Positions 12,069-28,275 of a stretch of DNA of 55,440 nt are shown piece by piece; position 1 is the first letter of the stretch; the number at the start of each line of letters is the position of its first letter. A model generated the notes under the pieces. The model was given only the letters and a program-made list of their open reading frames with translations, ran no database searches and was not told the origin of the DNA. The position numbers and the translations under genes are program-made. Source of the DNA: Streptomyces griseoluteus (lineage in GTDB: Bacteria > Actinomycetota > Actinomycetes > Streptomycetales > Streptomycetaceae). The stretch lies in assembly GCA_000717735.1 (NCBI GenBank), contig JOBE01000048.1, forward strand, positions 1 to 55,440, written 5' to 3'.

Positions 12069-13034
12069 ATGGGTGAGTGGCGGGACGAGTTCGCCGAGGC
12101 CGGCGCGCGGGCGCGACGGGCACTCGTGCGGGAGGTCGTGCGCGAGGTCGAGGCGGACGGCGAGACGGTCGATGCCGTCTGGCGGGACGCCTTCGCCGAG
12201 GTTCCGCGCCATCTCTTCGTCCCGTACTACTACGTCCCCGGGCCCGGCGGCTACGAGCGGCTCTGGTCCGGCGACCCGGAGCGCGAGCGGCGGGACCGCT
12301 GGCTGAGCGGGGCGTACGAGGACACCGCGCTCGCCACCCGCGTACGGGACGGGGAACTGCTCTCCTCCGCCAGCCAGCCCTCCCTGATGGCGCTGATGCT
12401 CCAGGCCCTGGACGTACGGGACGGGGACGACGTCCTGGAGATCGGCGCAGGGACCGGCTACCACGCGGCGCTGCTCTGCCACCGCCTCGGCGAGGAGCAC
12501 GTCACCACCCTCGACCTGGACGAGGAGATCGTCGAGTCGGCCCGCACCCATCTGGCCGCCGCCGGGTACCGCCCGGCGGTGATCGTCGGCGACGGCGCCC
12601 GGGGCTGCGCCGAGCGGGCCCCCTACGACCGGGTCGTCGCGACCTGCGCCGTGCCCTCGGTGCCGTACCCCTGGCTCGCCCAGTGCCGGCCCGGTGCGCT
12701 GGTCCTCGCCCCGCTCTCCACCGGGCTGCTCCTGCTGCGGGTGCGCGACGCGACGCACGCGGAGGGACGGTTCCTGGCGACGTCGGCGTACTTCGTGGCG
12801 CTCCGGGGCGCCGCGGGGCGCGCCCCGCATCCAGAACCGGCCGGGGACGAGCGGTTCCGCTTCCTGTGGGGGCTGGTCGGCGGGACCCTCGACAGACGCG
12901 AAGCGCTCTCGCTCTGGCTGCGCGAGCGGCGGCCGGAGCGGGAGCGCTTCGGGGTGACGGTCAGCGGCGACCGGCAGTGGTCCTGGCTCGACGACCCCGG
13001 AGGGCCGTACGCCTGGCCCCTGCCGGACGCGTGA
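12069..13034 (+). CDS. Protein-L-isoaspartate O-methyltransferase-like methyltransferase
   Basis: A 321-aa SAM-dependent methyltransferase. An N-terminal stretch (AFAEVPRHLFVP) and then LLSSASQPSLMALMLQAL resemble the PCMT substrate-binding segments (canonical form: SQPxxxxxM). The SAM pocket is VLEIGAGTGYHAALLC (motif I), followed by VTTLDLDEEIVESARTHL (motif Post I). VVATCAVPSVPYPWLAQCRPGALVLAPLSTG fits the later motifs. The extra C-terminal region, about 100 residues past the catalytic core, is typical of longer actinobacterial PIMT-like proteins, some of which act in peptide maturation. No precursor peptide is visible here. ATG at 12069 has GGAGAGTGGAGG directly upstream. The stop lies only 9 bp from the convergent FHA gene stop. 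Confidence 0.85.
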   Translation: MGEWRDEFAEAGARARRALVREVVREVEADGETVDAVWRDAFAEVPRHLFVPYYYVPGPGGYERLWSGDPERERRDRWLSGAYEDTALATRVRDGELLSSASQPSLMALMLQALDVRDGDDVLEIGAGTGYHAALLCHRLGEEHVTTLDLDEEIVESARTHLAAAGYRPAVIVGDGARGCAERAPYDRVVATCAVPSVPYPWLAQCRPGALVLAPLSTGLLLLRVRDATHAEGRFLATSAYFVALRGAAGRAPHPEPAGDERFRFLWGLVGGTLDRREALSLWLRERRPERERFGVTVSGDRQWSWLDDPGGPYAWPLPDA

Positions 13035-13043
13035 GCGCGCGGA

Positions 13044-14414
13044 TCAGCCCAGGCGGATCGTGATCGTCGTCCAGGCGCCGACGTGCACCCGGTCGCCGTC
13101 CTGGAGCTGGACGGGGACGTAGGGCTGGATCGGCTCCTCGCCGCCGTTGACCGTGGTGCCGTTGGTGGAGTTCTGGTCCACCACCGCCCACGAGCCGTCC
13201 GGCTGCTGTACGAGCACCGCGTGCTGGTGCGAGACGCCCGGGTCCTCCGGCGGCACCGACAGGTCGATGTCGGGGGACTCGCCGGTGGAGTGCCGGCGAC
13301 GGCCGATGGAGATCTGGTTGCCCTGGAGCGGCAGGTGCTTGGCCGGCGAGTAGGCGGGCAGGTTGAGACCCGTCGCCTCCGGGCCGCTGCGCTGCATCAT
13401 CGCCATGAAGTAGTCGCGGTCCGGTCCGATGACCGCGGTCCAGGACAGGGGCCGGCGCGGCGGCTGGAACTGCTGCGGAGGTTGCTGCTGCTGCCCCTGC
13501 TGCTGCTGTCCCTGGTGCTGCGGCGGGCCCTGAGGGGGCTGGTGCTGCGGAGGCGCCGGGTGCTGCGGCGGGCCCTGCGGCGCCTGGTGCTGCGGCGGCG
13601 GGGGTGCCTGGTGCGGCGGTCCCTGGTGCTGCGGAGGCGCCTGGTGCTGAGGGGCCGGCGGGGCCTGGTGCTGCGACGGCGGGGACAGGACCCAGTCGTC
13701 GTCCGCGCGCGGCTGCGGCGGCGCCGGGGCCTGGGCGGGGGCCTGGAGGTACGCGGGCGGGGCCGGCGGCTGCTGCTGCGCCTGCGGGCGCTGCGGCGGG
13801 GCCTGGTGGTGCGTGGGATCGCCACCGAGCGGCTCGGCCGGGCGGTTCACCTGCGAGGGCCGCGAACCCTGGTACCCGAACGGGTCCTGCTGCTGCGGCT
13901 GGTGCTGCTGCTGGTTCTGCGGCGGCTGCTGCTGCGGCGCGGGCGGCGGCGAGGACTGGAAGCCCGGCGGAAGGTTCAGGCCGGGCGGCGGGCCGGGCTG
14001 CTGCTGCGGCGGGGCCGGGGCGTTCTGCGGGGCCAGCGGCGTGTACGAGGTCGCCGTGTTCGTGAGGAAGTTCCAGCGGCACTCCTCGCAGAACGGCGCC
14101 ATGTACTCCCGCGGGGTGCGGCACTGCGGGCAGAGCTCCGCCTGCGCCGTCGCGTTCGGGTCGCCACCGGGGCCGAAGCCGCCGGGAGCGGGCGGCGCAC
14201 CGTGACCACCCGGGCCGGCGTGACCGCCGGGCGGGCCCGTCGGGGGCTGGCCGGGGCCGGGCTGACCGGGGCCGGGGTATCCGTACGCGGGGGGAGGCGG
14301 CGGGGGAGGCGGCGGTACGGCACCCGCCGGCGCACCCGCCCCGGCCATGCGATGGCCGCAGACCTCGCACCAGTCGTCGGAGACCGACTGGTGTCCGTTC
14401 GGGCAGGTCGGCAT
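13044..14414 (-). CDS. Zinc-ribbon and FHA domain protein
   Basis: A 456-aa cytosolic protein. The N-terminus has a zinc ribbon (CPNGHQ...WCEVCGH), then a Pro/Gly linker, a second ribbon (LCPQCRTP...FCEECRW), and a long Gln/Pro/His/Ala-rich low-complexity linker (roughly residues 130-320). The C-terminal FHA domain contains ISIGRRR, DPGVSHQHAVL and DQNSTNGTTVNG, which are the expected phosphothreonine-binding residues (G-R, S-x-x-H, N-x-T-N-G-T). FHA domains read phosphothreonine, so it is the likely reader in a cluster that also encodes a PknG-type kinase and a PP2C phosphatase. Unlike mycobacterial GarA, I see no short N-terminal threonine motif. It is last in the cluster, 41 bp after the vWA gene. 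Confidence 0.9.
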   Translation of the reverse strand: MPTCPNGHQSVSDDWCEVCGHRMAGAGAPAGAVPPPPPPPPPAYGYPGPGQPGPGQPPTGPPGGHAGPGGHGAPPAPGGFGPGGDPNATAQAELCPQCRTPREYMAPFCEECRWNFLTNTATSYTPLAPQNAPAPPQQQPGPPPGLNLPPGFQSSPPPAPQQQPPQNQQQHQPQQQDPFGYQGSRPSQVNRPAEPLGGDPTHHQAPPQRPQAQQQPPAPPAYLQAPAQAPAPPQPRADDDWVLSPPSQHQAPPAPQHQAPPQHQGPPHQAPPPPQHQAPQGPPQHPAPPQHQPPQGPPQHQGQQQQGQQQQPPQQFQPPRRPLSWTAVIGPDRDYFMAMMQRSGPEATGLNLPAYSPAKHLPLQGNQISIGRRRHSTGESPDIDLSVPPEDPGVSHQHAVLVQQPDGSWAVVDQNSTNGTTVNGGEEPIQPYVPVQLQDGDRVHVGAWTTITIRLG

Positions 14415-14455
14415 GTCGGTGCTTCCCCCTCTCGTCGTCCGGCCCGGTGGCCGGG

Positions 14456-15787
14456 CTACCTCTTGACGCGAACGGTCTTGGTGGAGCGGGTTTCGAGTGT
14501 CATCTCGTCCGCTTCCGCGACCTTCGCCTTCAAACGCACAGTACCGGTCGCCGCATCGACAACGTCGACCACCTTCGAAAGCAGTTTCGCCGTATCGGCG
14601 TTCCCCGAGGCCGCCGCGAGCTGCACGGCACGGCCCAGTTTGGCCGTCGCGCCGTCGTGATCACCCGATTTGCGGGCATCGAGACCCTGCTGGATGACGT
14701 CCGCCAGCTCCGCCTGCCCCGTGTAGTGCGCGACCTGCGGGTTGATCGACGTGGACATCGCCAGGTCGTCCGTCCACACCGCCCGTACCAGCCCTTGGGA
14801 CAGCGGACGCGGATCGCCGCCCGCCGGGTCCGGGGCGATCAGGGAGACCCGGGCGGCGAGCATCTCCTGCCCGATCGCGGCCTGCGGGACCCGCACGCTC
14901 ACGTGGTAGTCGCGGGACTCGTCGCCCCACGAGCCCGTCGGGTAGTCCCCGGCGCGCGGTCCGGCCTCGGTGCGCCGCCCGGTCAGGTCCTCGACCGTCG
15001 GCGCGACCTGCTTGACGAAGGAGATCTCCACCCCGACCGGCGTCCACAGGCGCAGCGCGACGTCCGCGACGCCCTTGTCCATCGCGTGTTCCATCATCGC
15101 CGTGAAGTCGGCGGCGAGGGCGGACGGGTCGGCGACGATGTCGGCGGTGCCGAGGAGTGCCGAGGCGATCCCGGTGACCTCCTTGACCTCCCAGTCGGTG
15201 CCCACCCCGCGCGCGTCACAGGTGAAGCGGCCCGCGCAGGCGTCGAGCGCGGCTCGCAGCTCCTCCGGCGACTCGTGCTCGTTGCGGCCGTCGGTGAGCA
15301 GGATGCCGTGCCGGATGGTGAGGTCGGCGGAGGCGAGCAGCCGGTCCGCGAGCCGCAGCCAGGTGCCGATCGCCGTGCCGCCGCCCGCGCTCAGCCGGCG
15401 CAGCGACTCCTTGGCCTCGGCGCGGGTCCTGGCGTCGGCGACGGCGAGGCCGCCGTTCCCCGGGTAGACCTCCTTCGCCACGTGCGTACCGGCGACGACG
15501 GCGAAGGACGTGCCGTCGCGCAGGGTGTCCACGGCGGCGGCGGTCGCCTCACGGGCGCCGCGCATCTTGGTCGAGGGGTAGTCCATCGAGCCGGAGCAGT
15601 CGACCATGATCACGACGCCGGCCGTGCCGCCGCCTCCCGGACCGAGCAGCCGCTGTCCGCTCGTGCCGCCCCCGGTCGACGTGACCGTGACGATGGAGCT
15701 GACGTCCCGGCCGCCCTCGGGCAGGAACTCGTTCTGGTAGACGTCCACCGAGAACTGCGGCACGGTCGACTTGGAGAAGTTCGCCAT
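14456..15787 (-). CDS. von Willebrand factor A domain protein
   Basis: A 443-aa protein whose vWA domain begins near residue 56. The MIDAS motif is VIMVDCSGSMDYP (Asp63, Ser65, Ser67). Thr in TAIGTWLRLADRLL and Asp in ILLTDGRNEHES complete the metal site. The C-terminal half is a beta-rich segment (VALRLWTPVGVEISFVKQV onward) and a helical tail with AAASGNADTAKLLSKVV. There is no signal peptide, so it is a cytosolic vWA like those paired with PP2C phosphatases and kinases in Ter-type triads. ATG at 15787. The MITE-like element sits 74 bp upstream, between this gene and the phosphatase, and may uncouple the two. Confidence 0.88.
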   Translation of the reverse strand: MANFSKSTVPQFSVDVYQNEFLPEGGRDVSSIVTVTSTGGGTSGQRLLGPGGGGTAGVVIMVDCSGSMDYPSTKMRGAREATAAAVDTLRDGTSFAVVAGTHVAKEVYPGNGGLAVADARTRAEAKESLRRLSAGGGTAIGTWLRLADRLLASADLTIRHGILLTDGRNEHESPEELRAALDACAGRFTCDARGVGTDWEVKEVTGIASALLGTADIVADPSALAADFTAMMEHAMDKGVADVALRLWTPVGVEISFVKQVAPTVEDLTGRRTEAGPRAGDYPTGSWGDESRDYHVSVRVPQAAIGQEMLAARVSLIAPDPAGGDPRPLSQGLVRAVWTDDLAMSTSINPQVAHYTGQAELADVIQQGLDARKSGDHDGATAKLGRAVQLAAASGNADTAKLLSKVVDVVDAATGTVRLKAKVAEADEMTLETRSTKTVRVKR

Positions 15788-15860
15788 CTGTTACTGCTCC
15801 TCGGACAACAACGTCGAACGGTGAAGGGACGGGGATCGGCGACCGCTCAGGCGGATCCTG

Positions 15861-16067
15861 CCCCAAGGGGCTGTCCGGCCAACCATGGCCGGGTCCGCGA
15901 TGTCTGGTACGGCACCTCGCCGCGTTACCGAAACGCCCGAACAGTTCCGCTATGAGGGCGCTCCGGCGCCTTGCGATGCGTCCCCCAGGCCGTGCGGGCC
16001 TGGGGAGACCCCATGCACCGGACACCGCGGCCTATCCGGCCCTGGTCGGCCGGACAGCCCCTTGGGG
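15861..16067. mobile_element. MITE-like element, copy 1 (207 bp)
   Basis: The ends are perfect 20-bp inverted repeats: CCCCAAGGGGCTGTCCGGCC (15861-15880) and its reverse complement (16048-16067). The interior encodes no transposase. It is strongly similar to the element at 55199-55397, with shared blocks such as CACCTCGCCGCGTT, GCTCCGGCGCCTTGCGA and CTGGGGAGACCCCATGCACC. No clear target duplication is visible. It sits between the PP2C and vWA genes and contributes the end of the PP2C reading frame. Confidence 0.82.
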
Positions 16068-17414
16068 AGAGACGGTGAACGGGACCAGGGCGACCGTGAT
16101 GTTGTCGTGGCCTCCGCCGTCCAGGGCGTGGCCGACGAGCACCTGCGCCCCGTGCAGCGGGCGGTCCGCCGCATCGGCCGGGACGACCCGGGCCATGTCG
16201 TCGGCGCCCTCCGCGTAGTTCCACAGGCCGTCCGTGCACACCACCACCACGCCGGACCGGTCCGGCTTGAACGCGGCGGTGTGCGGCTCCAGTTCGTACG
16301 AGTCGGCGCCCAGCCAGCCGGTGATCGCGTGGGCGCGCTCGTCGGCGTACGCCTCCGCCTCGCTCATCAGGCCCGCCGCGACCATCTGCGCGGCCCACGA
16401 GTCGTCCTCGGTGAGCCGGACCGGCGCGGTGGCGCGGTCGTCCGGCACCCAGTAGGCGCGGCTGTCGCCGACCCAGCCCACGACGAGCAGTCCGTCGGCT
16501 ACGACGGAGCCCACGATGGTGCAGGCCGGGGCGTTGCGGTGGCGGTGCGGGTCGTGCTCCGCGCCGTCCTGGCCCGGCTCCTCCGCGAGGGAGTTGACGG
16601 CCTCGGCGGCGGCCACGATCGCCTCGTGCATCGCCTGCTGCGGGTGGGTGCCCCGGGGCAGCGCCGCGAGCAGCGAGGCACCGGCCGCCTCCGCGGCGGC
16701 GGCGGAGGCCTCGTCGGGACGGGTCGCCGAGGACACGCCGTCGCAGACGATCGCGACGGTGGCGGGGGAGCCGTCGGGGAGCGTGGTCGCGGACACGGCG
16801 AACGCGTCCTCGTTGCGGTGGTGGCGCAGCCCCCGGTCGCTGACGGCGGCGACACCGCCCAACTCTCGCTCCATGTGGTCGCGTTCGCGGGGCTGCGCGT
16901 GCCCGCAGTTCTCGCAGTAGCCGTCGGTGTCCACCCGCCCGGCCCGGCATGCCACGCACATGGCGGCGGTGGCGGCCGAAGCGGTGGGGGCAGCGGGCGC
17001 CGGTGCCGAGGCCGGTGCGGGGGGCGGCGCCGGGGCCGCCCGTACCGCCGTACGCGGGTCCGGCGCGGCCAGTTCGAAGTCCCCGCTGCCCGCCGTGGTG
17101 TTCCCTCCCGGCGGCAGCGGCTCGTCCGTGCGGACCGGGATCGTGGGCAGGTCACGGCCGCCGGAGTCGGTGCCCGGCAGGTCACCCGGGTGCTGCGTCA
17201 TGGTGGAGAGCGAACCGGGCTCCCGTGGCGGGGCGTCCGGCCAGGCCACGGGGGTGCCGATCGCCACGGTCGGCCGGTCGGGACCGGCCTCGGCGGCCGG
17301 CACGGCCGTCAGGTCGTGACCGCACGCCCCGCAGAACCGGTCACCCGACTCCAGAGGCTCCGCGCAGTCCGGGCAGACCACGAGTCCGTGCGACGGCTTC
17401 GGCTTCTGGGACAT
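16032..17414 (-). CDS. PP2C-family Ser/Thr phosphatase with zinc ribbons
   Basis: A 460-aa soluble protein. Zinc ribbon 1 (VCPDCAEP...FCGACGHDL, residues 13-35) and, after a Pro/Ala-rich linker, ribbon 2 (MCVACRAG...YCENCGHAQ) precede the PP2C domain, which starts near residue 188. Phosphatase motifs are SDRGLRHHRNEDAF, VCDGVSSAT, VGWVGDSRAYW, CTDGLWNYA and GHDNITVAL; the metal-binding Asp residues are present. The last 11 residues (PQGAVRPTRAG) and the stop codon are encoded by the MITE terminus, beginning exactly at its edge (16067). The PP2C core is complete before that point, so activity should survive. ATG at 17414 is 2 bp from the kinase stop; GTG at 17420 would give a 4-bp overlap. It probably reverses phosphorylation by the adjacent kinase. 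Confidence 0.9.
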   Translation of the reverse strand: MSQKPKPSHGLVVCPDCAEPLESGDRFCGACGHDLTAVPAAEAGPDRPTVAIGTPVAWPDAPPREPGSLSTMTQHPGDLPGTDSGGRDLPTIPVRTDEPLPPGGNTTAGSGDFELAAPDPRTAVRAAPAPPPAPASAPAPAAPTASAATAAMCVACRAGRVDTDGYCENCGHAQPRERDHMERELGGVAAVSDRGLRHHRNEDAFAVSATTLPDGSPATVAIVCDGVSSATRPDEASAAAAEAAGASLLAALPRGTHPQQAMHEAIVAAAEAVNSLAEEPGQDGAEHDPHRHRNAPACTIVGSVVADGLLVVGWVGDSRAYWVPDDRATAPVRLTEDDSWAAQMVAAGLMSEAEAYADERAHAITGWLGADSYELEPHTAAFKPDRSGVVVVCTDGLWNYAEGADDMARVVPADAADRPLHGAQVLVGHALDGGGHDNITVALVPFTVSPQGAVRPTRAG

Positions 17415-17416
17415 CC

Positions 17417-20020
17417 TCACACCCACGTCCGGGGGCGGAAGCGGTTGGCCCGCTCCACCAGTTCGATCCTCTCCTCGCCCCGCTGGGCGAGCCGGGCCAG
17501 CACCCGGTACGAGCGTTCGAGGCCGAAGCGCAGTCCGCGCTCGTCCAGTTCACTCCCGAGCAGCAGCGCGCCGCCGCCCGGTTCCGCACCGGGACTCCCG
17601 GAGAGTACCCAGTCGAGGGCCGTTCCGAGCACCTCCACCGACAACTGCTCCCGGCGCACCGCGTCGAGACCGAAGCCCTGGAGCGCGGAGACCTGCGCCG
17701 CGGCCGCCGTCAGATCGGCACCGAGCGGCTCCCGCGCGGGGCGCCGCCGCAGCCGCGCCCGCACGGTCGCCACCCGGGCCGCCGTGTAGTGGATCGAGGC
17801 CTCCGGTACGGACTCAAGGGTCGCTACGGCACCGGTACGGTCGCCCGCCGCGAGCCGCACCCGGGCGAGCCCGAAGGCCGCGCTGACGAAGCTCGGGTCG
17901 GTGGCCCACACCAGGCGGTAGTACTCGGCGGCGTTGTCCAGCTGACCGAGTACCTCGGCGCAGATCCCGAGGGCCAGCTTCGGGGCCGGCTCGCCGGGGA
18001 AGGCGTCGTAGACCGCGTCGAAGGCGAGTGCCGCGTGCTCGTGGTCCCCGGTCACCAGGGAGGTGACGCCCCGGTACCAGACGACCCGCCAGTCGTCCGG
18101 GTCACGCTCCTCGATCCCGGCGAGGGTCCGGACGGCGGAGGGCAGGTCGCCCAGCTCCAGCTGGGCCCGCAGGGTGCGCAGCCACAGCTCGGCGGAGGCC
18201 ACGGGCGCGGCATGGAGCGCGGCGAGCAGCTCGCCCGGAGCGGCGGCGGCGAGACCGGCGAGGAACCCGGCGTTGGGATCGCCCGGGTCGACGCGCGGCA
18301 CGGGCAGCGCGAGCGCGGTGGCGGGCGTGTCGAGCGGCGCGAGCAGCTCCCCGAGCCCCGGACCGCCGGAAGGCGCGGCCCCGGGAATGGCCCCGGGACC
18401 GGCCCCGGCGACACCCCCAGGTACGGCCCCCGGAACGGCCCCGGCGACACCCCCAGGTACTGCCCCGGGCGCCTTTCTTCCCGGCTTCCGCGCCCCGAGC
18501 AGCGACACGTCCTCCGTCAGCTCGGCGAAGAGCGCCGTGTCCGTGACCCGGACCTCCGTGCCGAACAGCGTCGAGAGCGCAGGGCGCGGCCGCCCCGACT
18601 GGAGCGCCACGACCTCCCGCAGCACACCCGTCAGCTGTTCCGCCATCTCCTGCGCGGAGGCGAACCGGCGCGCGGGATCCGGGTCGGTGGCGCGGACCAG
18701 GAAGCGGTAGAAGGACTCGTACGTCCGGAAGACCGCGATGTTGTCGGGGTCGGGCAGCGAGTCCACGAAGACGTTCGTGTAGCCCTGGAAGTCGAAGGTC
18801 ATCACGGCGAGCGTGCGCGCCACCGTGTAGAGGTCGCTCGCCACCGAGGGGCCGACCTCGGCCACCTCCGGCGCCTGGTAGCCGACGGTGCCGTAGATCG
18901 CGGACTCCTCGTCGTCCATCCGCCGGACCGCGCCCATGTCGATGAGCTTGAGCTGGTCCTCGGACTGGATGGCGTTGTCGACCTTGAAGTCGCAGTACAG
19001 CAGGTTGCGGCTGTGCAGGTGCCCGAGCGCCTCAAGGGCCTCGATCCCGTACGCGCAGGCCTGCTCGACCGGCAGCGGATCGCGCCGCCCGTCCGGGGTC
19101 CGCCGGTCGTTGGCGATCTCCTTGAGCGACTTGCCGCCGACGTACTCCATGACGATGTAGCCGTCCAGGGAGCCGGTGCGCTGGTCGAGGTGCTCGACGA
19201 AGTTGTAGATGCGGACGATGTTGGAGTGCTCGATCTCGGCGAGGAAGCGCCGCTCGGAGATCGCGGCGGCCATGGCGTCCTGGTCGCCGGTGTCGAGCAG
19301 GCCCTTGAGGACGACCCACCGGTCGGAGACGGCCCGGTCGACGGCGAGGTAGATCCAGCCGAGGCCGCCGTGCGCGAGGCAGCCCGCGACCTCGTACTGA
19401 CCGTGGACGATGTCCCCGCCGCGCAGCTTCGGCACGAAGGAGTACGGGTGCCCGCACTTGGTGCAGAAGCCCTCCGTACGGCCCTGCCGGTCACCCCGCG
19501 AACGACCCACGGGCGCCCCGCAGTCGGAACGGGAGCAGAATCGCTTCCGCTCGGGAACCTCGGGGTTGTCCATCACCGCGCCCCGCGGGTCGGGACGCGG
19601 CACCTCCGGGATCGACACCAGGCCCGCGCCCAGCCGGTTCCTGGCGGACTGGCCGGTCGACGAGCCCGAGCTGCGCACCGACACCGAGCGGGCTGTGGAG
19701 GCCCCGGAGAGCGAGCGCGAGAGCCGCCCGGAGACCGAACGGCGAGACGTCGACGAGCGAGACGAGCGGGACGAGGCCCGCGAGGACGCCCGCGAACTGC
19801 TCCGCGAGGAGCCGGAGTCCTGCCCCCCGACACCCGCACCCGTACCGGTGCCCCTGCCGGGCACGGCCACGCCCGTCGGCGTCGAGCCGATGAGCCCTCC
19901 GGGCGCCACCACGGGGGCGAGCCCGCAGGTGTCGCAGTACAGCTCACCGCCCCCCATGTCCTCGTACGATCCCTCGCACGAAGGACGCTGACAGCTCCCC
20001 ACGCCCGTCTCCCCGCTCAC
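17417..20020 (-). CDS. pknG: PknG-type serine/threonine protein kinase with TPR domain
   Basis: An 867-aa soluble kinase. A zinc ribbon (Cys10, Cys15, Cys29, Cys32) is followed by a Ser/Arg-rich linker at about 69-125. A rubredoxin-like ribbon follows (FCSRSDCG...FCTKCGH, 161-191), as in mycobacterial PknG. The kinase domain has LAHGGLGWIYLA, Lys239 in VVLKGL, the PknG-type catalytic loop YCDFKVDN (Asp344) instead of HRD, and DMG (361-363) instead of DFG. A Gly/Pro/Ala repeat linker leads to a helical TPR region (YRGVTSLVTGDHEHAALAF and ASIHYTAARVATVRARL). PknG phosphorylates metabolic regulators in response to amino acids via GlnH/GlnX, both encoded upstream here. GTG at 20020 overlaps the preceding stop (GTGA) and keeps the first zinc ribbon. 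Confidence 0.92.
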   Translation of the reverse strand: MSGETGVGSCQRPSCEGSYEDMGGGELYCDTCGLAPVVAPGGLIGSTPTGVAVPGRGTGTGAGVGGQDSGSSRSSSRASSRASSRSSRSSTSRRSVSGRLSRSLSGASTARSVSVRSSGSSTGQSARNRLGAGLVSIPEVPRPDPRGAVMDNPEVPERKRFCSRSDCGAPVGRSRGDRQGRTEGFCTKCGHPYSFVPKLRGGDIVHGQYEVAGCLAHGGLGWIYLAVDRAVSDRWVVLKGLLDTGDQDAMAAAISERRFLAEIEHSNIVRIYNFVEHLDQRTGSLDGYIVMEYVGGKSLKEIANDRRTPDGRRDPLPVEQACAYGIEALEALGHLHSRNLLYCDFKVDNAIQSEDQLKLIDMGAVRRMDDEESAIYGTVGYQAPEVAEVGPSVASDLYTVARTLAVMTFDFQGYTNVFVDSLPDPDNIAVFRTYESFYRFLVRATDPDPARRFASAQEMAEQLTGVLREVVALQSGRPRPALSTLFGTEVRVTDTALFAELTEDVSLLGARKPGRKAPGAVPGGVAGAVPGAVPGGVAGAGPGAIPGAAPSGGPGLGELLAPLDTPATALALPVPRVDPGDPNAGFLAGLAAAAPGELLAALHAAPVASAELWLRTLRAQLELGDLPSAVRTLAGIEERDPDDWRVVWYRGVTSLVTGDHEHAALAFDAVYDAFPGEPAPKLALGICAEVLGQLDNAAEYYRLVWATDPSFVSAAFGLARVRLAAGDRTGAVATLESVPEASIHYTAARVATVRARLRRRPAREPLGADLTAAAAQVSALQGFGLDAVRREQLSVEVLGTALDWVLSGSPGAEPGGGALLLGSELDERGLRFGLERSYRVLARLAQRGEERIELVERANRFRPRTWV
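18400..18460. repeat. Direct repeat inside the kinase linker
   Basis: A 25-bp sequence occurs identically at 18400-18424 and 18436-18460 (period 36 bp). It encodes the repeated Gly-Ala-Val-Pro-Gly-Gly-Val-Ala peptide between the kinase and TPR parts. Such repeats can change copy number by slippage. Confidence 0.8.
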
Positions 20021-21294
20021 CACTGTCGTCCTCCCGCGTCTCTCGGGCCGGACAGTACGTCCGCCGCCGCCTGCTGGTAGCGCAGCACGGCCTGTTCCGC
20101 CACCCGCAGATCGCAGGGCGCGCTCCACAGCATCCTGCGGGCCGCGTCGTACCGCTCCACGAGCAGCGGGTCCTCCGCCGCGCCCAGGCGCGCCACCTTC
20201 GCCTTGTACGCGTCGAGCCGGCCGCGCAGCTCGGCCCGGACCGCGAGCGGCGCCGTGACCGCGGTCAGCGACTCCCGGGCCCGCAGCAGTTCGTCCTCCG
20301 CCTCCCGCTCCAGGGACTCCAGAAGCGGCGAAAGGCGGTGCCACTGGGCGTGCCTGCGGTACTCCGCGGCGGCGGCCAGCCGTTCCTGGAGCACGAGCGA
20401 CGGCCCGCTGACGGCCGGCACCTCGGAGGCGGCGATCTTCGCGAGGACCTCGCCGCGCGCGGCACGCGCCTCGGCGAGCGTACGGTCCGCCCGCGAGAGC
20501 ACGTCCCGCAGGCGCAGGAGCCGGTCCTCGGAGTCCTGCCGGACCGCGAGCACCGCCTCGATCTCGCGCCGGATGTCCTCGAGGGCCAGGGCGGCCCTGT
20601 CGTACCGCACGGTGTCGGGCCGGCCCCCGCCGGGCGCCGAACTGCCGACGGCGGGACGCCAGAAGGCCAGCGGATCGGTCACCACCTGGGTGCGCAGCAG
20701 GGTCAGCTCGGCCGTGATCTCCTCGAGCTCGTCCCCGGCCGGATGCTCCCCGGGCCGCACGCCCACCGAGTGGGCGAGCGAGCGCGTCCGGCCCAGCTCG
20801 GCCGCCAACAGGTCTATCCGGGCAGGCAGCGCCGACCAGACGGCGTCCGCGGTGACCACCAGGTCGAGCGAGGACGCGTACAGCTCGTTCATCCGCCGGA
20901 CGAGGCCCTCCAGGCTGAACCGCTCGGACAGCAGCCCCTGCTCACCGGCGCCGCCCGCGACGACGACGCTCTCGCCGCGCAGCCGGTCGGTCAGCTCCAC
21001 GAGCTCGTCACGGCCGGGCCAGCGGCGCCGGGCGCGCAGCTCGCGGGCGTCCCGCAGGGCGCCCGTGTACACGTCGAAGCAGGTCCAGAGCAGGGTGATG
21101 GTCCGCTCGGCCGCCGCCCAGCGGTCCCGGGTCGTGCCGGTCAGCTCGGCCCCTTCGAGCAGCCTGCGGCCCGCGTGGTCCTGGAGCGCGAGGAGCGAGT
21201 CCTCGATCGCCTTGTGCTCGGCGCCGAGCCGCGCCAGCGCACGGTCCACCTCGTCCCGGTCCATCACCGGCCCAGGGGGTCCCGTGACGCCCAT
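20017..21294 (-). CDS. Coiled-coil protein of the pknG cluster (unknown function)
   Basis: A 425-aa soluble, almost wholly helical protein rich in Leu, Glu, Arg and Ala. Examples are VDRALARLGAEHKAIEDSLL, then LERFSLEGL-like segments, LEDIRREIEAVLAVRQ and LLESLEREAEDELL. No enzyme motif, signal peptide or membrane helix is seen. I do not recognise a family. It lies between glnH and the kinase, and its stop overlaps the kinase start by 4 bp (GTGA), so the two are translationally coupled. The context suggests a scaffold or adaptor between the membrane sensor and the kinase. That is inference from position and coiled-coil character only. Confidence 0.78.
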   Translation of the reverse strand: MGVTGPPGPVMDRDEVDRALARLGAEHKAIEDSLLALQDHAGRRLLEGAELTGTTRDRWAAAERTITLLWTCFDVYTGALRDARELRARRRWPGRDELVELTDRLRGESVVVAGGAGEQGLLSERFSLEGLVRRMNELYASSLDLVVTADAVWSALPARIDLLAAELGRTRSLAHSVGVRPGEHPAGDELEEITAELTLLRTQVVTDPLAFWRPAVGSSAPGGGRPDTVRYDRAALALEDIRREIEAVLAVRQDSEDRLLRLRDVLSRADRTLAEARAARGEVLAKIAASEVPAVSGPSLVLQERLAAAAEYRRHAQWHRLSPLLESLEREAEDELLRARESLTAVTAPLAVRAELRGRLDAYKAKVARLGAAEDPLLVERYDAARRMLWSAPCDLRVAEQAVLRYQQAAADVLSGPRDAGGRQW

Positions 21295-21349
21295 CGATCA
21301 CCTCTTCCGCCGCGCCTATAGGGGCTGCATGCCGTGTTCCCCGGCCGGG

Positions 21350-22387
21350 TCACTTGTACCGGGGGGCGGGCGGCCCGGTTATGCCGGGCAGATCCGCCTT
21401 GAGCCAGTGCTTGTACGCCTCCTGCCACGGCCCGTTCCGGTAGTTCACCAGGACGTGGTTGACCCGGCGGACCAGGTCGTCGTTGCCGAGTTTCGCGGCC
21501 ACCCCGTAGAACTCGGTGGTGAACGGCCGGCCCTTCAGCTCGACCGCGGGGTCCTGGGCTGCCTGGCCGGCCGCGAGGGCGTTGTCGGTGACGACGGCGT
21601 CGACCTCGCCCAGCTGGAGTCTGGCCAGGCAGTCCAGCTGGTTGGGGACCGTCAGCAGGTCCTTGTCGTCCTTGGTGCCGTCGCCCTCGTCCTTGAAGAG
21701 CGCGCCGAAGGAGTTCTCCTCCAGGGCCTCGTAGGCGGTGGAGCCCTCGGCGGTGCAGATCCGCTTGCCGCGCAGCGAGGAGTCGTAGCCGGTGACGTCC
21801 TTGGCGAGCTTGGGCGCCAGGACCTGCTGTCCGGCCTGGAAGTAGGCGGTGGAGAAGGCGACCTGCTGGATCCGCTTGCAGTTGATCGTCATGGTGCGCA
21901 CGACGAGGTCGACCTTGCCGCTGTCCAGGGCGGCGATCCGCTGGTTCGTCGGGATCGCCCGGAAGATGACGGCGTTCTCGTCGCCCAGGATGTCCTTGGC
22001 TATCGCCCGCGCCAGATCGATGTCGAAGCCCTCCAGGACGCCCTTCTCCGGGTTCCGGTAGCCCCAGCGGAAGCTGGACTGGTCGACGCCGACGATCAGC
22101 TTCCCGCGGTCCTTGACGGCCTGGATCGCCGGGCCGTCGGCCGTCGAGGGCCGCAGGGACGCCTCCGGGTTCTCGCAGGTGTCCGCCTTGACCTGGACCC
22201 CGGTGCCGACGCCGGGTCCGGCACCGTGCGTCCCGGGCGCGGCCGCCGCGCCGCCGCCGTCGTGGGCCAGCGGAAGCAGGGTGAGCGAGGCGGTGAGCCC
22301 GCAGGCCACGGCCATGGCGGCCACCCCGCCCCAGCCCCTGAACCGCATCGCTGTCCGCCGCACCAGCGGGTACGTGCCGTTCGGCAT
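21350..22387 (-). CDS. glnH: GlnH-type amino-acid binding protein
   Basis: A 345-aa extracytoplasmic solute-binding protein (SBP family 3). An N-terminal hydrophobic segment (VAAMAVACGLTASLTLLPLA) includes AVAC, a possible lipobox with Cys29. The binding fold contains GKLIVGVDQSSFRWGYRNPEKGVLEGFDIDLARAIA, the strand VDLVVRTMTINCKRIQQVAFSTAYF and VDAVVTDNALAAGQ, typical of glutamate/aspartate-binding proteins. There is no permease or ATPase beside it. As in mycobacteria, where GlnH binds aspartate and glutamate and signals through GlnX to PknG, it probably senses rather than transports. ATG at 22387 has GAGAGGGGG upstream and lies 11 bp after the glnX stop. Confidence 0.88.
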   Translation of the reverse strand: MPNGTYPLVRRTAMRFRGWGGVAAMAVACGLTASLTLLPLAHDGGGAAAAPGTHGAGPGVGTGVQVKADTCENPEASLRPSTADGPAIQAVKDRGKLIVGVDQSSFRWGYRNPEKGVLEGFDIDLARAIAKDILGDENAVIFRAIPTNQRIAALDSGKVDLVVRTMTINCKRIQQVAFSTAYFQAGQQVLAPKLAKDVTGYDSSLRGKRICTAEGSTAYEALEENSFGALFKDEGDGTKDDKDLLTVPNQLDCLARLQLGEVDAVVTDNALAAGQAAQDPAVELKGRPFTTEFYGVAAKLGNDDLVRRVNHVLVNYRNGPWQEAYKHWLKADLPGITGPPAPRYK

Positions 22388-22398
22388 CCCGCCCCCTC

Positions 22399-23826
22399 TC
22401 ACCGGTACTCCGACAGTCTGCGGTTGATGCCGAGCACGGCGCCCGCCGCGCCGAGGATCCCGAGGGCCGCCGCGCCGAGGGGCAGCGCCGTCAGCGCGTC
22501 CCTGGCGTTCCCTGCGGAGAGGGTGAACTCGTCCTGCTCGTGGTCGAGGGCCTTGTCCAGGGCCGCGTCGACCTGGTCGAAGGACTGGCCGGTCGTCTCC
22601 TTGGGGCCGACGATCCGGCCGAGGGCGCCTTCGAAGTCGCCGGCCTCGTCCTTCGCACGGGCGTCCTTGTGGCGCTTCTGCCACTCGCCGGTGCGGGAGG
22701 CGGCCTCGTCGACGGGGGTGCGGCCCTCGTCGTCGTCGGCCCACTCGCGCGCCGTGGCGAGCGCGGTCGTCAGGGCGCCCATGCTCGCCGCGTACTCGGC
22801 CTCGTACTTGTCGTTCTTGCCGTCCTCGGTGAGGACGGCGCCCCGGGCGACCAGGGTCAGGTTCTCGTTGGCGCGGGCCGTGAGCGAGCCGATCCGGGCG
22901 GTGTTGAGGACCTGGAGGGACTCCTGCCCGTGGGCGCGCGCGCTGTCGAGCCCGGCGCGGGCGACCGTGTGCGCGGCGAGGAGCCAGACGATGACGACCA
23001 CGGTGGCGGCGGTGGCGACGAGCAGCCCGTGGTTGAAGACCCGGTGGGTCCTGGCGTAGTTGCGGCGCTGGGCCCAGACGAGGACGGCGAGGGTGAGCAG
23101 GCCGAGGCCGAGGGAGAGGAACGGCCAGGTACGGGCCGACTCCTCGTCCTCCTGGAGCCGTACCGTCTCCGCCGCGTACAGCCGCTCGGCGGCGGGCAGC
23201 AGGGTGCTGGTCATCTGCTGGTTGGCGTACCGCAGATAGGCCCCGCCCAGCGGGAGGCCCTGCCGGTTGGCGGCCCGTGCGCGCTCGACGAGACCCGTGT
23301 AGCGGGGGAGTCCCTCGTTGAGGGTGGCGATCTCGCGGGCCGACTCGCTCGAACCCTCGGTGCTCGCCGCGGCCTTCACGAGGAGCTTGGCGGCGGTGGC
23401 GATGTCCAGGTCGTACCGCGCGCGTGAGTCCGCGGGCTCCAGGGTGCCCGCGAGGAAGCCGCTGGCGGCGGTGGTGTCGGCGTCGGCGAGGGAGCGGTAG
23501 ATCGCGGCGGCGTCGGCGGACAGCGGCTGGCTGCGGCTGACGACGTCGTCGGCTGCGGTGGCCCGGTCGTCGACCTGGAGGGCGGTGACGGCTCCGAACG
23601 CGACGACGAGCAGCGCGAGTACGGCCCCGAGGATCTGGAGCCGGCCGGGCTCCGTCGTCGTGGCGACGCGCAGCTTCTCCCGGCCCACGGACCAGGCTCC
23701 GCGTCCCGCGGGCGGGGCGGTGCCGGGCGCGGGCGACGGCTGGGCGGGCACGCCGGCCGGGCGTGCGGGCGCGGGAGCCGTGCTCCGCGCCGCCGAGGCG
23801 GCGGGCGCGTTCGGCGGGTGTGTCAC
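22399..23826 (-). CDS. glnX: GlnX-type transmembrane sensor protein
   Basis: A 475-aa membrane protein. A Pro/Ala-rich cytoplasmic N-terminus is followed by four membrane helices: LGAVLALLVVAFGAVTAL, WPFLSLGLGLLTLAVLVWA, LLVATAATVVVIVWLLAAH, and a C-terminal one starting TALPLGAAALGILGAAGAV. Between helices 1-2 and 3-4 lie two helical extracytoplasmic bundles (SQPLSADAAAIYRSLADAD... and ARIGSLTARANENLTL...). This four-helix, two-sensor layout fits mycobacterial GlnX, which couples GlnH ligand binding to PknG. GTG at 23826 has GGGGGAGG upstream and removes an implausible long extension. It is the first gene of the cluster; a 16-bp palindrome lies 46 bp upstream. Confidence 0.85.
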   Translation of the reverse strand: MTHPPNAPAASAARSTAPAPARPAGVPAQPSPAPGTAPPAGRGAWSVGREKLRVATTTEPGRLQILGAVLALLVVAFGAVTALQVDDRATAADDVVSRSQPLSADAAAIYRSLADADTTAASGFLAGTLEPADSRARYDLDIATAAKLLVKAAASTEGSSESAREIATLNEGLPRYTGLVERARAANRQGLPLGGAYLRYANQQMTSTLLPAAERLYAAETVRLQEDEESARTWPFLSLGLGLLTLAVLVWAQRRNYARTHRVFNHGLLVATAATVVVIVWLLAAHTVARAGLDSARAHGQESLQVLNTARIGSLTARANENLTLVARGAVLTEDGKNDKYEAEYAASMGALTTALATAREWADDDEGRTPVDEAASRTGEWQKRHKDARAKDEAGDFEGALGRIVGPKETTGQSFDQVDAALDKALDHEQDEFTLSAGNARDALTALPLGAAALGILGAAGAVLGINRRLSEYR

Positions 23827-24122: not shown

Positions 24123-25097
24123 TCAGCCTCCGTAGTGCCCCCGCAGCCGGGCCGCCGCCTCAGGACCCGCCGCCACCTCGTCCAGGGCGAGCAGCCCCGC
24201 CCCGAGGACCGGCGGCGCCGTCACGAAGCCGATGACGGCCTTCGGCGCCCGCTCGGCGAGGAGTTCGCGGATCCGCTCCTCCAACTGCGGGTGACGGGCG
24301 GCCAGCACGCTGCCGCCCAGCATCACCGGAGCCTCCTCGTCGAGGAGACCGAGCCGCCCGAGCGCCACCGCCGACAGGGCGACGACCTCCTCGGCGAGCC
24401 GGTGCACCAGTGACAGGGCGACCGGGTCGCCGGCCGCGCTCACCCGGAACAGCACGGGCGTCAGCTCGTGCCGCCGCTCGAAGGGCACCCGGCCCAGGTG
24501 CAGCGCCTCGATCAGCGCGTACATCGTCTCCAGACCGAAGTGCGCGGGCAGCGCCCGCGCGAGCCCGGTCGGCTCACCGCGTCCGTCCTCGGCGCGGGCC
24601 GCGAACCAGAGCGCCTCCTCGGCCAGGCCGCTGCCGCCGCCCCAGTCCCCGGAGATCTTCCCGATCGCCGGGAAGCGCGCGGTCCGCCCGTCCGGGGTCA
24701 TCCCGACGCAGTTGATCCCGGCCCCGCACACCACGGCGACCCCGCGCGGCTCGTCGATCCCCGCCCGCAGGACCGCGAAGGTGTCGTTGTGCACGCGTAC
24801 CGACCGGCTCCAGCCCCTGCCGAGGAGTTCGGCCCGCAGCGCGGTCTCCTCGACGGGCAGGTCGGCGTTGGCGAGACAGGCGGCGACATGGTCGAACGCG
24901 GCCGGGACACCGGCCTCCTCACACGCCCGGCCGACGACCTCCGCGAGCGCGTCGACCGCCGCGTTCACCCCCACCACGGGCGGCTGGAACCCGCCGCCGC
25001 GGGCCGCGCCGAGGACGGTGCCGTCCGCGCCGAGGACCGCGACGTCGGTCTTGCTGTTGCCGGCGTCGACGGCGAGGACGATTCCGGTCAGGCCCAC
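24123..25097 (-). CDS. csnK: BadF/BadG-type amino-sugar kinase (CsnK-like)
   Basis: A 324-aa ASKHA-fold kinase of the BadF/BadG/BcrA/BcrD group, which includes N-acetylglucosamine kinases. The phosphate-1 loop is LAVDAGNSKTDVAVLGADG, with the catalytic-region segment ACLANADLPVEE, adenosine-type glycine motif KISGDWGGGSGLAEEAL and AVVCGAGINCVG. It is the last gene of a ROK-regulated oligosaccharide operon and would phosphorylate the released glucosamine or GlcNAc unit. GTG at 25097 overlaps the GH4 gene stop by 10 bp. Its ribosome binding site is weak, so translation may be coupled. Symbol by analogy to the csn cluster of S. coelicolor. Confidence 0.78.
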   Translation of the reverse strand: MGLTGIVLAVDAGNSKTDVAVLGADGTVLGAARGGGFQPPVVGVNAAVDALAEVVGRACEEAGVPAAFDHVAACLANADLPVEETALRAELLGRGWSRSVRVHNDTFAVLRAGIDEPRGVAVVCGAGINCVGMTPDGRTARFPAIGKISGDWGGGSGLAEEALWFAARAEDGRGEPTGLARALPAHFGLETMYALIEALHLGRVPFERRHELTPVLFRVSAAGDPVALSLVHRLAEEVVALSAVALGRLGLLDEEAPVMLGGSVLAARHPQLEERIRELLAERAPKAVIGFVTAPPVLGAGLLALDEVAAGPEAAARLRGHYGG

Positions 25098-26353
25098 GCG
25101 AGGTGCTCCCGGTTGTGCGCGATCAGCCGGTCGGTGAGCCCGTCGGCGTACGCGTACTGCCCCACAAGGGGGTGCGCGAGCAGTGCCTTGAACACCCGGT
25201 CGCGTCCACCGCGCAGCGCCGCCTCCAGTGCCAGGTCCTCGTAGGCGGTGACGTTCGCGATCAGACCGGCGTACAGCGGGTCCACCGGCGCGACCGGCAG
25301 CGGGGTGGCGCCGTGCCCGCCGACCGCGGCCTGCGTCTCGATGACGGCGTCGTCCGGCAGGAACGGCAGCGTGCCGTCGTTGTACGTGTTCACCACCTGG
25401 TACGGCGAACCCCCGCCGCCCAGCAGGGACGCCGCCAGGTCCACGGCCGCCTCCGAGTAGAAGGCGCCGCCGCGCTTGGCGAGCAGGGCCGGCTTCTCGT
25501 CGAGCGCCGGGTCCCCGTACATCTCCAGGAGTTCCTTCTCCATCGCGGCGACCTCGGCGGCCCGTGAGGGCTTCGTGCCGAGTTCCCGCACCACCTCGTC
25601 GTGCGCGTAGAAGTACCGCAGGTAGTACGAGGGGACGACGCCGAGCCGGTCGAGGACCGGGCGCGGCAGGCGGAGGTCGTCGGCGACGGCGTCGCCGTGC
25701 TCGGCGAGCAGCCGGGGCAGTACGTTCTCGCCCTCGGGCCCCCCGATCCGTACGGCACGCTCCCAGGTCAGGTGGTTGAGCCCGACGTGGTCGAGGTGGA
25801 TCTCGGACGGCGTCACATCGAGGAGCTTCGCGAACTTCCGCTGGAAGCCGATGGCGACGTTGCACAGGCCGACGGCCTTGTGGCCCGCCTGGAGCAACGC
25901 GCGCGTGACGATGCCGACGGGGTTGGTGAAGTCGATGATCCAGGCGTCCGGGTTGGTGCGCCGGACCCGCTCGGCGATGTCCAGGACGACCGGGACCGTC
26001 CGCAGCGCCTTGGCGAGGCCGCCGGCGCCGGTGGTCTCCTGGCCGACGCAGCCGCACTCCAGCGGCCAGGTCTCGTCCTGCAGACGGGCGGCCTGTCCGC
26101 CGATCCGCAGCTGGAGCAGGACGGCGTCGGCGCCCTCGACCCCGGCGTCGAGGCCGGTGGTGGTGACGATCTTCCCGGCGTGGCCCTGCTTGGCGAAGAT
26201 GCGCCGGGCGAGGCCGCCGACGAGTTCGAGCCGCTCGGCGGCCGGGTCGACGAGGACGAGTTCGGTGATGGGCAGGGTGTCGCGCAGACGCGCGAATCCG
26301 TCGATCAGTTCGGGGGTGTAGGTGGAACCGCCCCCCACGACAGTGAGCTTCAT
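25088..26353 (-). CDS. csnH: GH4 6-phospho-beta-glucosidase-type glycosidase (CsnH-like)
   Basis: A 421-aa NAD- and metal-dependent GH4 hydrolase. The Rossmann start is KLTVVGGGSTYTPELIDGF, then VLVDPAAERLELV, the metal/substrate segments IIDFTNPVGIVT and GLCNVAIGFQRK (metal Cys), and the DHVGLNHLTW His. The family cleaves by oxidation-elimination at C3 and accepts phosphorylated or free glycosides. In this operon it probably splits imported glucosamine oligomers. ATG at 26353 follows the permease stop by 7 bp. Confidence 0.85.
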   Translation of the reverse strand: MKLTVVGGGSTYTPELIDGFARLRDTLPITELVLVDPAAERLELVGGLARRIFAKQGHAGKIVTTTGLDAGVEGADAVLLQLRIGGQAARLQDETWPLECGCVGQETTGAGGLAKALRTVPVVLDIAERVRRTNPDAWIIDFTNPVGIVTRALLQAGHKAVGLCNVAIGFQRKFAKLLDVTPSEIHLDHVGLNHLTWERAVRIGGPEGENVLPRLLAEHGDAVADDLRLPRPVLDRLGVVPSYYLRYFYAHDEVVRELGTKPSRAAEVAAMEKELLEMYGDPALDEKPALLAKRGGAFYSEAAVDLAASLLGGGGSPYQVVNTYNDGTLPFLPDDAVIETQAAVGGHGATPLPVAPVDPLYAGLIANVTAYEDLALEAALRGGRDRVFKALLAHPLVGQYAYADGLTDRLIAHNREHLAWA

Positions 26354-26360
26354 GGTCGAT

Positions 26361-27254
26361 TCAGCCCTTCACTCCGGTCAGTGTGACTCCCTCGACGAAC
26401 GCCTTCTGGGCGAAGAAGAACACGAGGATCACGGGGGCCATGACCAGCACGGTCGCGGCCATGGTCAGATTCCAGTCGGTGTGGTGCGCGCCCTTGAAGG
26501 ACTCCAGGCCGTAACTGAGCGTCCAGGCGCCCGGGTTCTCGGAGGCGTAGATCTGCGGCCCGAAGTAGTCGTTCCAGCAGTAGAAGAACTGGAACAGGGC
26601 CACGGCGGCGATGCCCGGCTTCGCCATCGGGAGGACGATCCGGATCAGGGTGCGGAACTCGCCGCAGCCGTCGATCCTCGCGGACTCGATGTACTCGTTC
26701 GGGATGGTCAGCAGGAACTGGCGCAGCAGGAAGATCGCGAAGGCGTCGCCGAAGGCCATCGGGATGATCAGCGGCCACAGCGTGCCGGAGAGGTCCATCT
26801 GCTTCGCCCAGAACAGGTACATCGGGATGATGACGACCTGCGGCGGCAGCATCATCATCGAGATCACGAGCAGCAGCGACAGGTGCCGGCCGCGGAAGCG
26901 GAACTTGGCGAGCGCGTACGCCACGGGGACCGAGGACACCACGACGAGCGCGGTGCCGAGCCCCGCGTACAGCAGCGAGTTCCGCCACCAGGTGAGGAAG
27001 CCCTCCGTCCGGAAGACCTCGACGTAGTTGTCCCAGTGCCAGGAGTTCGGCGTCAGGTCCCGGGTGAGCGCCTGCTGGTCGCTCATCAGGGAGGTGAGGA
27101 AGACGAAGACGAACGGCAGCACGAAGAAGAGGGCCGCGGCGATGCCGAGCGAGTGCACGGCGATCCAGTGCAGCAGCGCCTTGCGGCGGGCGGTCCTCTC
27201 GGCGGGGCTCGGCGCGGTCCCGGCGGCACGGTCGAGTACGGATGTGGTCGTCAT
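26361..27254 (-). CDS. csnG: Sugar ABC transporter permease, MalG type (CsnG-like)
   Basis: A 297-aa inner-membrane permease (BPD_transp_1) with about six helices, starting IAAALFFVLPFVFVFLTSLM. The EAA loop that contacts the ATPase is YIESARIDGCGEFRTLIRIVLP. It forms the channel with the neighbouring MalF-type permease. No ATPase gene is in the operon, as is usual for Streptomyces sugar importers that share MsiK. It starts at ATG 27254, 3 bp after the partner's stop. Confidence 0.88.
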   Translation of the reverse strand: MTTTSVLDRAAGTAPSPAERTARRKALLHWIAVHSLGIAAALFFVLPFVFVFLTSLMSDQQALTRDLTPNSWHWDNYVEVFRTEGFLTWWRNSLLYAGLGTALVVVSSVPVAYALAKFRFRGRHLSLLLVISMMMLPPQVVIIPMYLFWAKQMDLSGTLWPLIIPMAFGDAFAIFLLRQFLLTIPNEYIESARIDGCGEFRTLIRIVLPMAKPGIAAVALFQFFYCWNDYFGPQIYASENPGAWTLSYGLESFKGAHHTDWNLTMAATVLVMAPVILVFFFAQKAFVEGVTLTGVKG

Positions 27255-27257
27255 GGT

Positions 27258-28256: not shown

Positions 28257-28275
28257 GGGCGTGTTGTCCCGGCCG

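Follow-up and report, generated by a model that had tools for sequence, protein, structure and literature searches.

The 55,440-nucleotide stretch of Streptomyces griseoluteus DNA analysed here (assembly GCA_000717735.1, contig JOBE01000048.1; hereafter the window) makes up contig C48 in a genome of 8.1 Mb. Between positions 13044 and 23826, its minus strand carries seven intact open frames, which encode a GlnX protein, a GlnH protein, a coiled-coil (CC) protein, a PknG-type kinase, a PP2C phosphatase, a vWA protein and an FHA protein (Table 1). Because this set turns up repeatedly within the class, we do not regard it as a chance assembly, and below we argue that it may well form a nutrient-responsive phospho-switch. 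A sequence-only reading of the window had named these seven genes, on one strand and in this order, and all of them were recovered as open frames and family matches. The key residues of the kinase, the PP2C, the MIDAS and the FHA domain, among them those that we presume to be catalytic, are at least 90% conserved in alignments of 72-101 rows.

Table 1. Genes and features of the seven-gene cassette in the window.
Feature	Position	Strand	Basis
GlnX-family signal transduction membrane protein	22399..23826	-	NF058618, 480 bits (cut-off 250)
GlnH-like amino-acid-binding protein	21350..22387	-	SBP_bac_3
CC, all-helical rod, candidate scaffold	20017..21294	-	no family above cut-off; long predicted helices
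PknG-type kinase with N-terminal zinc ribbon (pattern-based), Ser/Arg-rich segment and rubredoxin, kinase and TPR domains	17417..20023	-	
PP2C phosphatase, two Cys4 ribbons ahead of the phosphatase domain	16032..17414	-	PP2C_2, Zn_ribbon_3
vWA protein with a MIDAS-bearing vWA domain, a beta-sandwich and C-terminal helices	14456..15787	-	VWA_3 + VWA_3_C
vWA tail LETRSTKTVR (residues 431-440), candidate phospho-acceptor	14468..14497	-	
FHA protein with two zinc ribbons (pattern-based) at the N-terminus, a long linker and an FHA domain at the C-terminus	13044..14414	-	FHA, 62 bits

Properties of the encoded proteins

On the narrower GlnX equivalog NF041460 the window protein scores 177 bits, under the cut-off of 780. 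The best PDB match of GlnH is M. tuberculosis GlnH (6h1u, E 1.6e-48), and of the pocket residues of that protein (Arg147, Thr162, Trp232) the Arg and the Thr are retained; the window protein still has an amino-acid-binding fold. The kinase scores 298 bits on PknG_TPR and 114 bits on PknG_rubred, and its match to M. tuberculosis PknG (2pzi, E 2.8e-170) covers rubredoxin, kinase and TPR.

In the PP2C, Pfam detects only the first of the two Cys4 ribbons; the cysteines of the ribbons and the DG/DN-motif Asp are conserved in 90% or more of 77 rows. The CC protein exceeds the cut-off of no family in the profile libraries, a myosin-tail match staying below threshold, and a Foldseek search with its predicted model (long helices; predicted local distance difference test score, pLDDT, 90.7) returned nothing better than E 0.3. 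Its closest relatives are Streptomyces proteins, 94-96% identical. In another locus (L051:6331-10374) a single open frame spans part of CC and the kinase; either the frame of CC is broken there or the sequence contains an error.

Distribution of the gene set

We sought the PknG_TPR profile in 393 genomes of the class and found it in 148. The gene neighbourhood was surveyed in 100 hand-chosen pknG loci (40 Streptomyces main loci, 20 of family f87, 15 of f88, 13 of f3, 4 Streptomyces paralogs and 8 others), 88 of which are well flanked, with at least 5 kb on either side. All seven genes are present in 35/35 well-flanked Streptomyces main loci (family f1), and likewise in 10/18 of f87, 9/12 of f88, 1/1 of f83, 1/1 of f41 and 1/11 of f3; the complete set is found in 0/1 loci of f104, 0/2 of f108, 0/4 Streptomyces paralogs and 0/3 of f7, where CC was not detected and the other six genes are present. 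PP2C, vWA and FHA occur together in 63/88 well-flanked loci of this hand-chosen set; these partners are therefore not rare beside pknG, a point on which the sequence-only reading had staked its circuit. The same reading saw the locus as joining two known designs. One locus does hold a sensor of the GlnH/GlnX-PknG kind, a PP2C, a MIDAS-bearing vWA protein and a phosphothreonine reader, but as a common arrangement rather than a special fusion.

A second sample, of loci chosen by their vWA protein, points the same way. In the best 80 of 581 confirmed vWA loci, the seven genes stand in canonical order in 61 (51 of them wide-flanked); of the other 19, contig ends truncate 10, and 9 show a different order or a split, extra or missing frame. 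These best 80 include loci from Kutzneria, Actinophytocola (cut), Smaragdicoccus, Streptacidiphilus and one Solirubrobacteraceae metagenome-assembled genome. Across the 393 genomes the vWA protein (E<=1e-25) occurs in 101, of which 100 also have PknG (E<=1e-12; Fisher 6e-55, a value uncorrected for kinship); 48 genomes have PknG without the vWA protein. The sole vWA genome without PknG, G369, holds broken pieces of both on one contig.

The locus concerned, in a 6.1-Mb Streptomyces (L268, G369:C25:42000-58000), is a decayed cassette in which the kinase is reduced to a TPR fragment, vWA, GlnH and GlnX lie in pieces, and the CC, PP2C and FHA frames are still open. Profile searches for PknG and vWA gave no match in G612 and G644, of the same genus.

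The 13 f3 loci comprise 8 with glnX-glnH-pknG only, 3 with pknG only and 2 with the full set, the second of these (L143) being truncated on one flank. Given that f3 kinases score highest on the PknG_TPR model, this family is probably Mycobacteriaceae. In a quick, unrooted kinase tree of 77 rows, the two full f3 cassettes form a sister branch to the reduced f3 loci, and cassette loci are spread over most of the main branches. This suggests, as the simple reading and not a proven one, that f3 lost the output arm. The known three-gene operon is a smaller form of the seven-gene arrangement. It has been described as conserved, and in the main text of that study the terms 'von Willebrand' and 'phosphatase' occur 0 times (PMC6069109). 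In the literature that we searched we found no description of the seven-gene set and nothing linking PknG to ArnB.

Variant loci indicate how the parts group. The GlnX-GlnH pair comes after FHA in f87 and sits on the opposite strand in L149, so that the sensor pair and the remaining genes behave as separate blocks. In two second loci of f88 (L275, L276), CC, kinase, PP2C, vWA and FHA are present and GlnX and GlnH were not detected; the match of their kinases to the PknG profile stops near position 555, leaving the TPR part unmatched, and a Pfam scan of the 429-residue L275 kinase gave no PknG_TPR. Kinases without TPR are what we would expect here if this domain serves GlnX, as in the model put forward in PMC8546545. 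Eight divergent f88 loci (L277-L284) have a PknG-like kinase, CC and vWA and no PP2C, with FHA in 6/8, GlnX in 8/8 and GlnH in 6/8.

The C-terminal tail of the vWA protein

The vWA proteins end in a conserved, LDTxSTxT-like stretch, in which Ser435 and Thr438 reach 0.97 and 0.99 (73 rows). We analysed this tail in the 159 of 180 vWA loci that have sufficient flank. The motif is present in 142 of these, and its presence agrees with that of PP2C in 158 (141 with both, 17 with neither, 1 with the tail alone). In the lone exception, L269, a PP2C gene lies about 9.5 kb off, beside the kinase of that locus (L127). Agreement with FHA holds in 153/159 loci. When the vWA proteins were placed on a tree from which the tail columns had been left out, 4 changes of the tail were counted. 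Partial tails survive in loci scored as tail-less, namely SQRT in L272 and D/E-S-T-x-T in L147, L148 and L286-L288. The position of Thr438, compared by eye and post hoc, is Thr in 148/148 loci with FHA, including six divergent ones as S/Y-x-x-T, and Ser in 3/11 loci without FHA (L270, L282, L284), a pattern that fits a phosphothreonine reader. The predicted vWA model has pLDDT below 50 at residues 436-443. We read the tail as a putative phospho-site, which the kinase would write and PP2C would erase.

Of the 17 vWA proteins without tail and PP2C, 7 have a C-terminal zinc ribbon of their own. A vWA protein with a C-terminal zinc ribbon is encoded in the paralog locus L148:6682-12082, together with a trypsin-like protein and a second PknG-type kinase and with no PP2C or FHA; the same kinase-vWA pair is found in L147.

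Comparison with ArnA/ArnB and with GarA

The vWA profile matches PDB 4fx5 over its whole length with 594 bits. In Foldseek, the vWA model places 4fx5 at rank 1 and ArnB (8s05) at rank 2, with 8s05 and 5a8j both within ranks 2-4. Both the published 4FX5 structure and this ranking indicate a vWA domain followed by a beta-sandwich and a C-terminal helix bundle, and PMC6509490 describes 4FX5 as sharing the tripartite fold of vWA2, the paralog of ArnB. The 4FX5 protein (caci_2163 of Catenulispora acidiphila) is a full-length relative, 52-55% identical to the cassette vWA protein, tail included, but it is a structure without an assigned function. ArnB-like structures such as 4FX5 have been said to be 'mostly' not in multi-phosphorylation processes (PMC12852372).

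In Sulfolobus, the kinase ArnC and the phosphatase PP2A act on the ArnA/ArnB pair, which responds to nutrients. The cassette shares with this system of S. acidocaldarius a vWA protein of tripartite fold and, encoded beside it, a partner with an N-terminal zinc finger and a C-terminal FHA domain, as well as a Ser/Thr kinase with a TPR-like part (ArnC/ArnD in the archaeon), a phosphatase and, putatively, a nutrient input. It differs in being bacterial, with no archaellum, in having a membrane amino-acid sensor and the kinase in the same cluster, in the zinc-ribbon type of its FHA protein (not RanBP2) and in sequence, with 13-16% identity. The closest working analogue of the cassette is ArnA/ArnB and not Ter.

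The GlnX-GlnH-PknG system with GarA/OdhI of Mycobacterium and Corynebacterium has the same sensor pair, a kinase with rubredoxin, kinase and TPR parts, and a GarA homologue in the genome. The cassette departs from it by adding CC, PP2C, vWA, a zinc-FHA protein and the N-terminal zinc ribbon of the kinase, and by a GlnH pocket without the Trp. A GarA/OdhI homologue is found in 61/61 Streptomyces genomes at E<=1e-15 and in 0/61 above the curated 200-bit cut-off; that of the source genome lies on contig C12 (L267:1384-2367), with a zinc ribbon followed by ETTS and FHA. At least one zinc-ribbon pattern is present in 72/72 cassette FHA frames (two in 65), and the phosphothreonine-site pattern in 140/140 frames above 150 bits. 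We considered whether the cassette FHA protein is a relocated GarA and rejected this, as GarA is encoded separately and an ETTS-like motif was found in 0/71 cassette FHA proteins. The separate homologue in each of the 61 Streptomyces genomes makes the cassette FHA protein an extra reader, and the idea that the locus had taken GarA in does not hold.

Discussion

With somewhat more confidence than doubt, we propose that the cassette would work as a phospho-switch with a nutrient input. GlnH on the outside and GlnX in the membrane may act on the TPR domain of the kinase and so control how active it is, by analogy with what has been published for M. smegmatis and C. glutamicum, with CC as a putative scaffold linking sensor and kinase. 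The kinase would phosphorylate the vWA protein at its C-terminal Ser/Thr tail, from which PP2C would strip the phosphate again. The zinc-ribbon FHA protein could grip the vWA protein weakly through its ribbons and, when the tail carries phosphate, firmly through its FHA domain, as ArnA and ArnB do in Sulfolobus; the output would be an altered vWA-FHA complex. The kinase may phosphorylate the separate GarA as well. What the sequences and models themselves show is which genes are present, how conserved they are, the kinship of the folds, the intactness of the active-site residues and the association of tail and PP2C; we infer each kinase-substrate, binding and signalling step of the switch. A broader proposition, to which we give slightly less than an even chance, is that Actinobacteria hold a full bacterial counterpart of the ArnA-ArnB switch, with its amino-acid sensor, kinase and phosphatase encoded alongside, and that the mycobacterial glnX-glnH-pknG operon would be a stripped form that has lost the output arm and depends on GarA alone.

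Several observations weigh against the proposed switch. The agreement of tail and PP2C reduces to 3-4 independent contrasts, of which the 3 well-supported ones go with PP2C (sign test p 0.25), and most loci that lack the motif are divergent copies. We broadened the motif by one letter post hoc, after L275 and L276 had been seen; unwidened it agrees with PP2C in 156/159 loci, and a looser S-T-x-T core does so in 145/159. A strict link between motif and FHA is contradicted by six divergent loci, in which FHA and vWA are present but neither the full motif nor PP2C is. Three other loci (L093, L098, L099) keep PP2C and FHA without vWA, and there the two must have other partners, while L100 retains the kinase zinc ribbon without vWA, PP2C and FHA. 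The 4fx5 crystal chain aligns to model residue 441 despite the low confidence of the predicted tail, which may thus be ordered. As to the kinship with ArnB, the vWA model is weak between domains (predicted template modelling score, pTM, 0.48), proteins with little in common beyond the vWA domain equal ArnB in Z, Pfam assigns VWA_3_C with no ArnB_C at E<=0.01, and the phosphatase is a PP2C where the ArnA/ArnB system has PP2A. Finally, the window protein has Gln at the position of Trp232, the residue of M. tuberculosis GlnH that touches the side chain of Asp. This position is Gln in 37/38 Streptomyces rows and Trp in 10/10 rows of f3, 2/2 of f108 and 0 others. The ligand of the window GlnH therefore need not be Asp or Glu, the amino acids that the sequence-only reading had carried over from mycobacteria.

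Another explanation, which we hold to be unlikely, is that the ordinary PknG-GarA pathway operates here and that PP2C, vWA and FHA tune the phosphorylation of GarA, with PP2C, for example, as the GarA phosphatase, rather than forming a second output. The GarA homologues of Streptomyces, the ETTS of the source-genome copy and the phosphorylation of Saccharopolyspora GarA at ETTS, reported in PMC12321487, are all consistent with it. However, it leaves the vWA tail unexplained, vWA and FHA are absent from 10/11 well-flanked loci of f3, the family closest to the mycobacterial kinase, and TQAT-like N-terminal motifs occur in 4/8 readable vWA-less kinases of that family versus 2/138 readable kinases with vWA. 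The FHA protein might instead read the autophosphorylated N-terminus of the kinase, or CC, with the vWA protein as an unphosphorylated, metal-dependent adaptor. The loci that keep FHA and PP2C without vWA, the six that keep FHA without the full tail motif, and the Ser-rich N-terminal segments of the cassette kinases inspected lend this some substance; we nevertheless rate it as improbable, because neither the conservation of the vWA tail nor its agreement with PP2C is explained.

Sets in which a kinase and a PP2C are combined with a vWA protein, sometimes with FHA as well, are also known from stress systems. The Ter-associated triad has kinase, PP2C and vWA neighbours, and differs from the present locus in that FHA and amino-acid sensor genes are found here. 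The phosphorylation pathway of type VI secretion, PpkA/PppA/Fha, likewise links a kinase to vWA, PP2C and FHA, with kinase and vWA as separate genes in our case. P. aeruginosa PpkA combines both in one protein, according to PMC1262709. That the cassette is a kinase-phosphatase stress system of either kind, with no tie to amino acids, seems to us very improbable: the genome has 15 TerD matches, 0 of them on contig C48, the type VI sheath protein VipB (PF05943) gave 0 matches in the genome, and the sensor genes are GlnX and GlnH. The Ter-type design invoked by the sequence-only reading is accordingly a weak analogue, and ArnA/ArnB fits better.

The PknG papers that we consulted approach this kinase through GarA/OdhI; if the proposed switch is real, a further, conserved output of it has gone unnoticed. 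In that case the so far unexplained structure 4FX5 would gain a first functional answer, and the control of ArnB-type proteins by phosphorylation would be common to archaea and bacteria. The recurrence of the seven-gene set in many relatives makes the idea easy to test, and Streptomyces is a genus in which nutrient signals are tied to development and antibiotic production.

Gene boundaries and neighbouring genes

The sequence-only reading had reported 4-bp overlaps in the middle of the locus. GTGA overlaps are indeed possible between CC and the kinase (kinase GTG at 20020) and between the kinase and PP2C (alternative PP2C start, GTG at 17420), but they are not certain, since other starts are possible; the kinase may begin at 20023 or at 20020. 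The remaining intergenic gaps are 11, 55, 244 and 41 nt. The 244-nt gap between PP2C and vWA is flanked by a 32-nt inverted repeat (15861-15892 / 16036-16067, 94% complementary), one arm of which sits within the 3' end of the PP2C gene. Downstream, the cassette is bordered by a convergent gene for a PCMT-type methyltransferase (12069-13034), and upstream by a BadF-type ATPase gene. The latter belongs to a stretch on the same strand (24123-29613) that also encodes a glycosidase of family 4 along with the components of a binding-protein ABC transporter.

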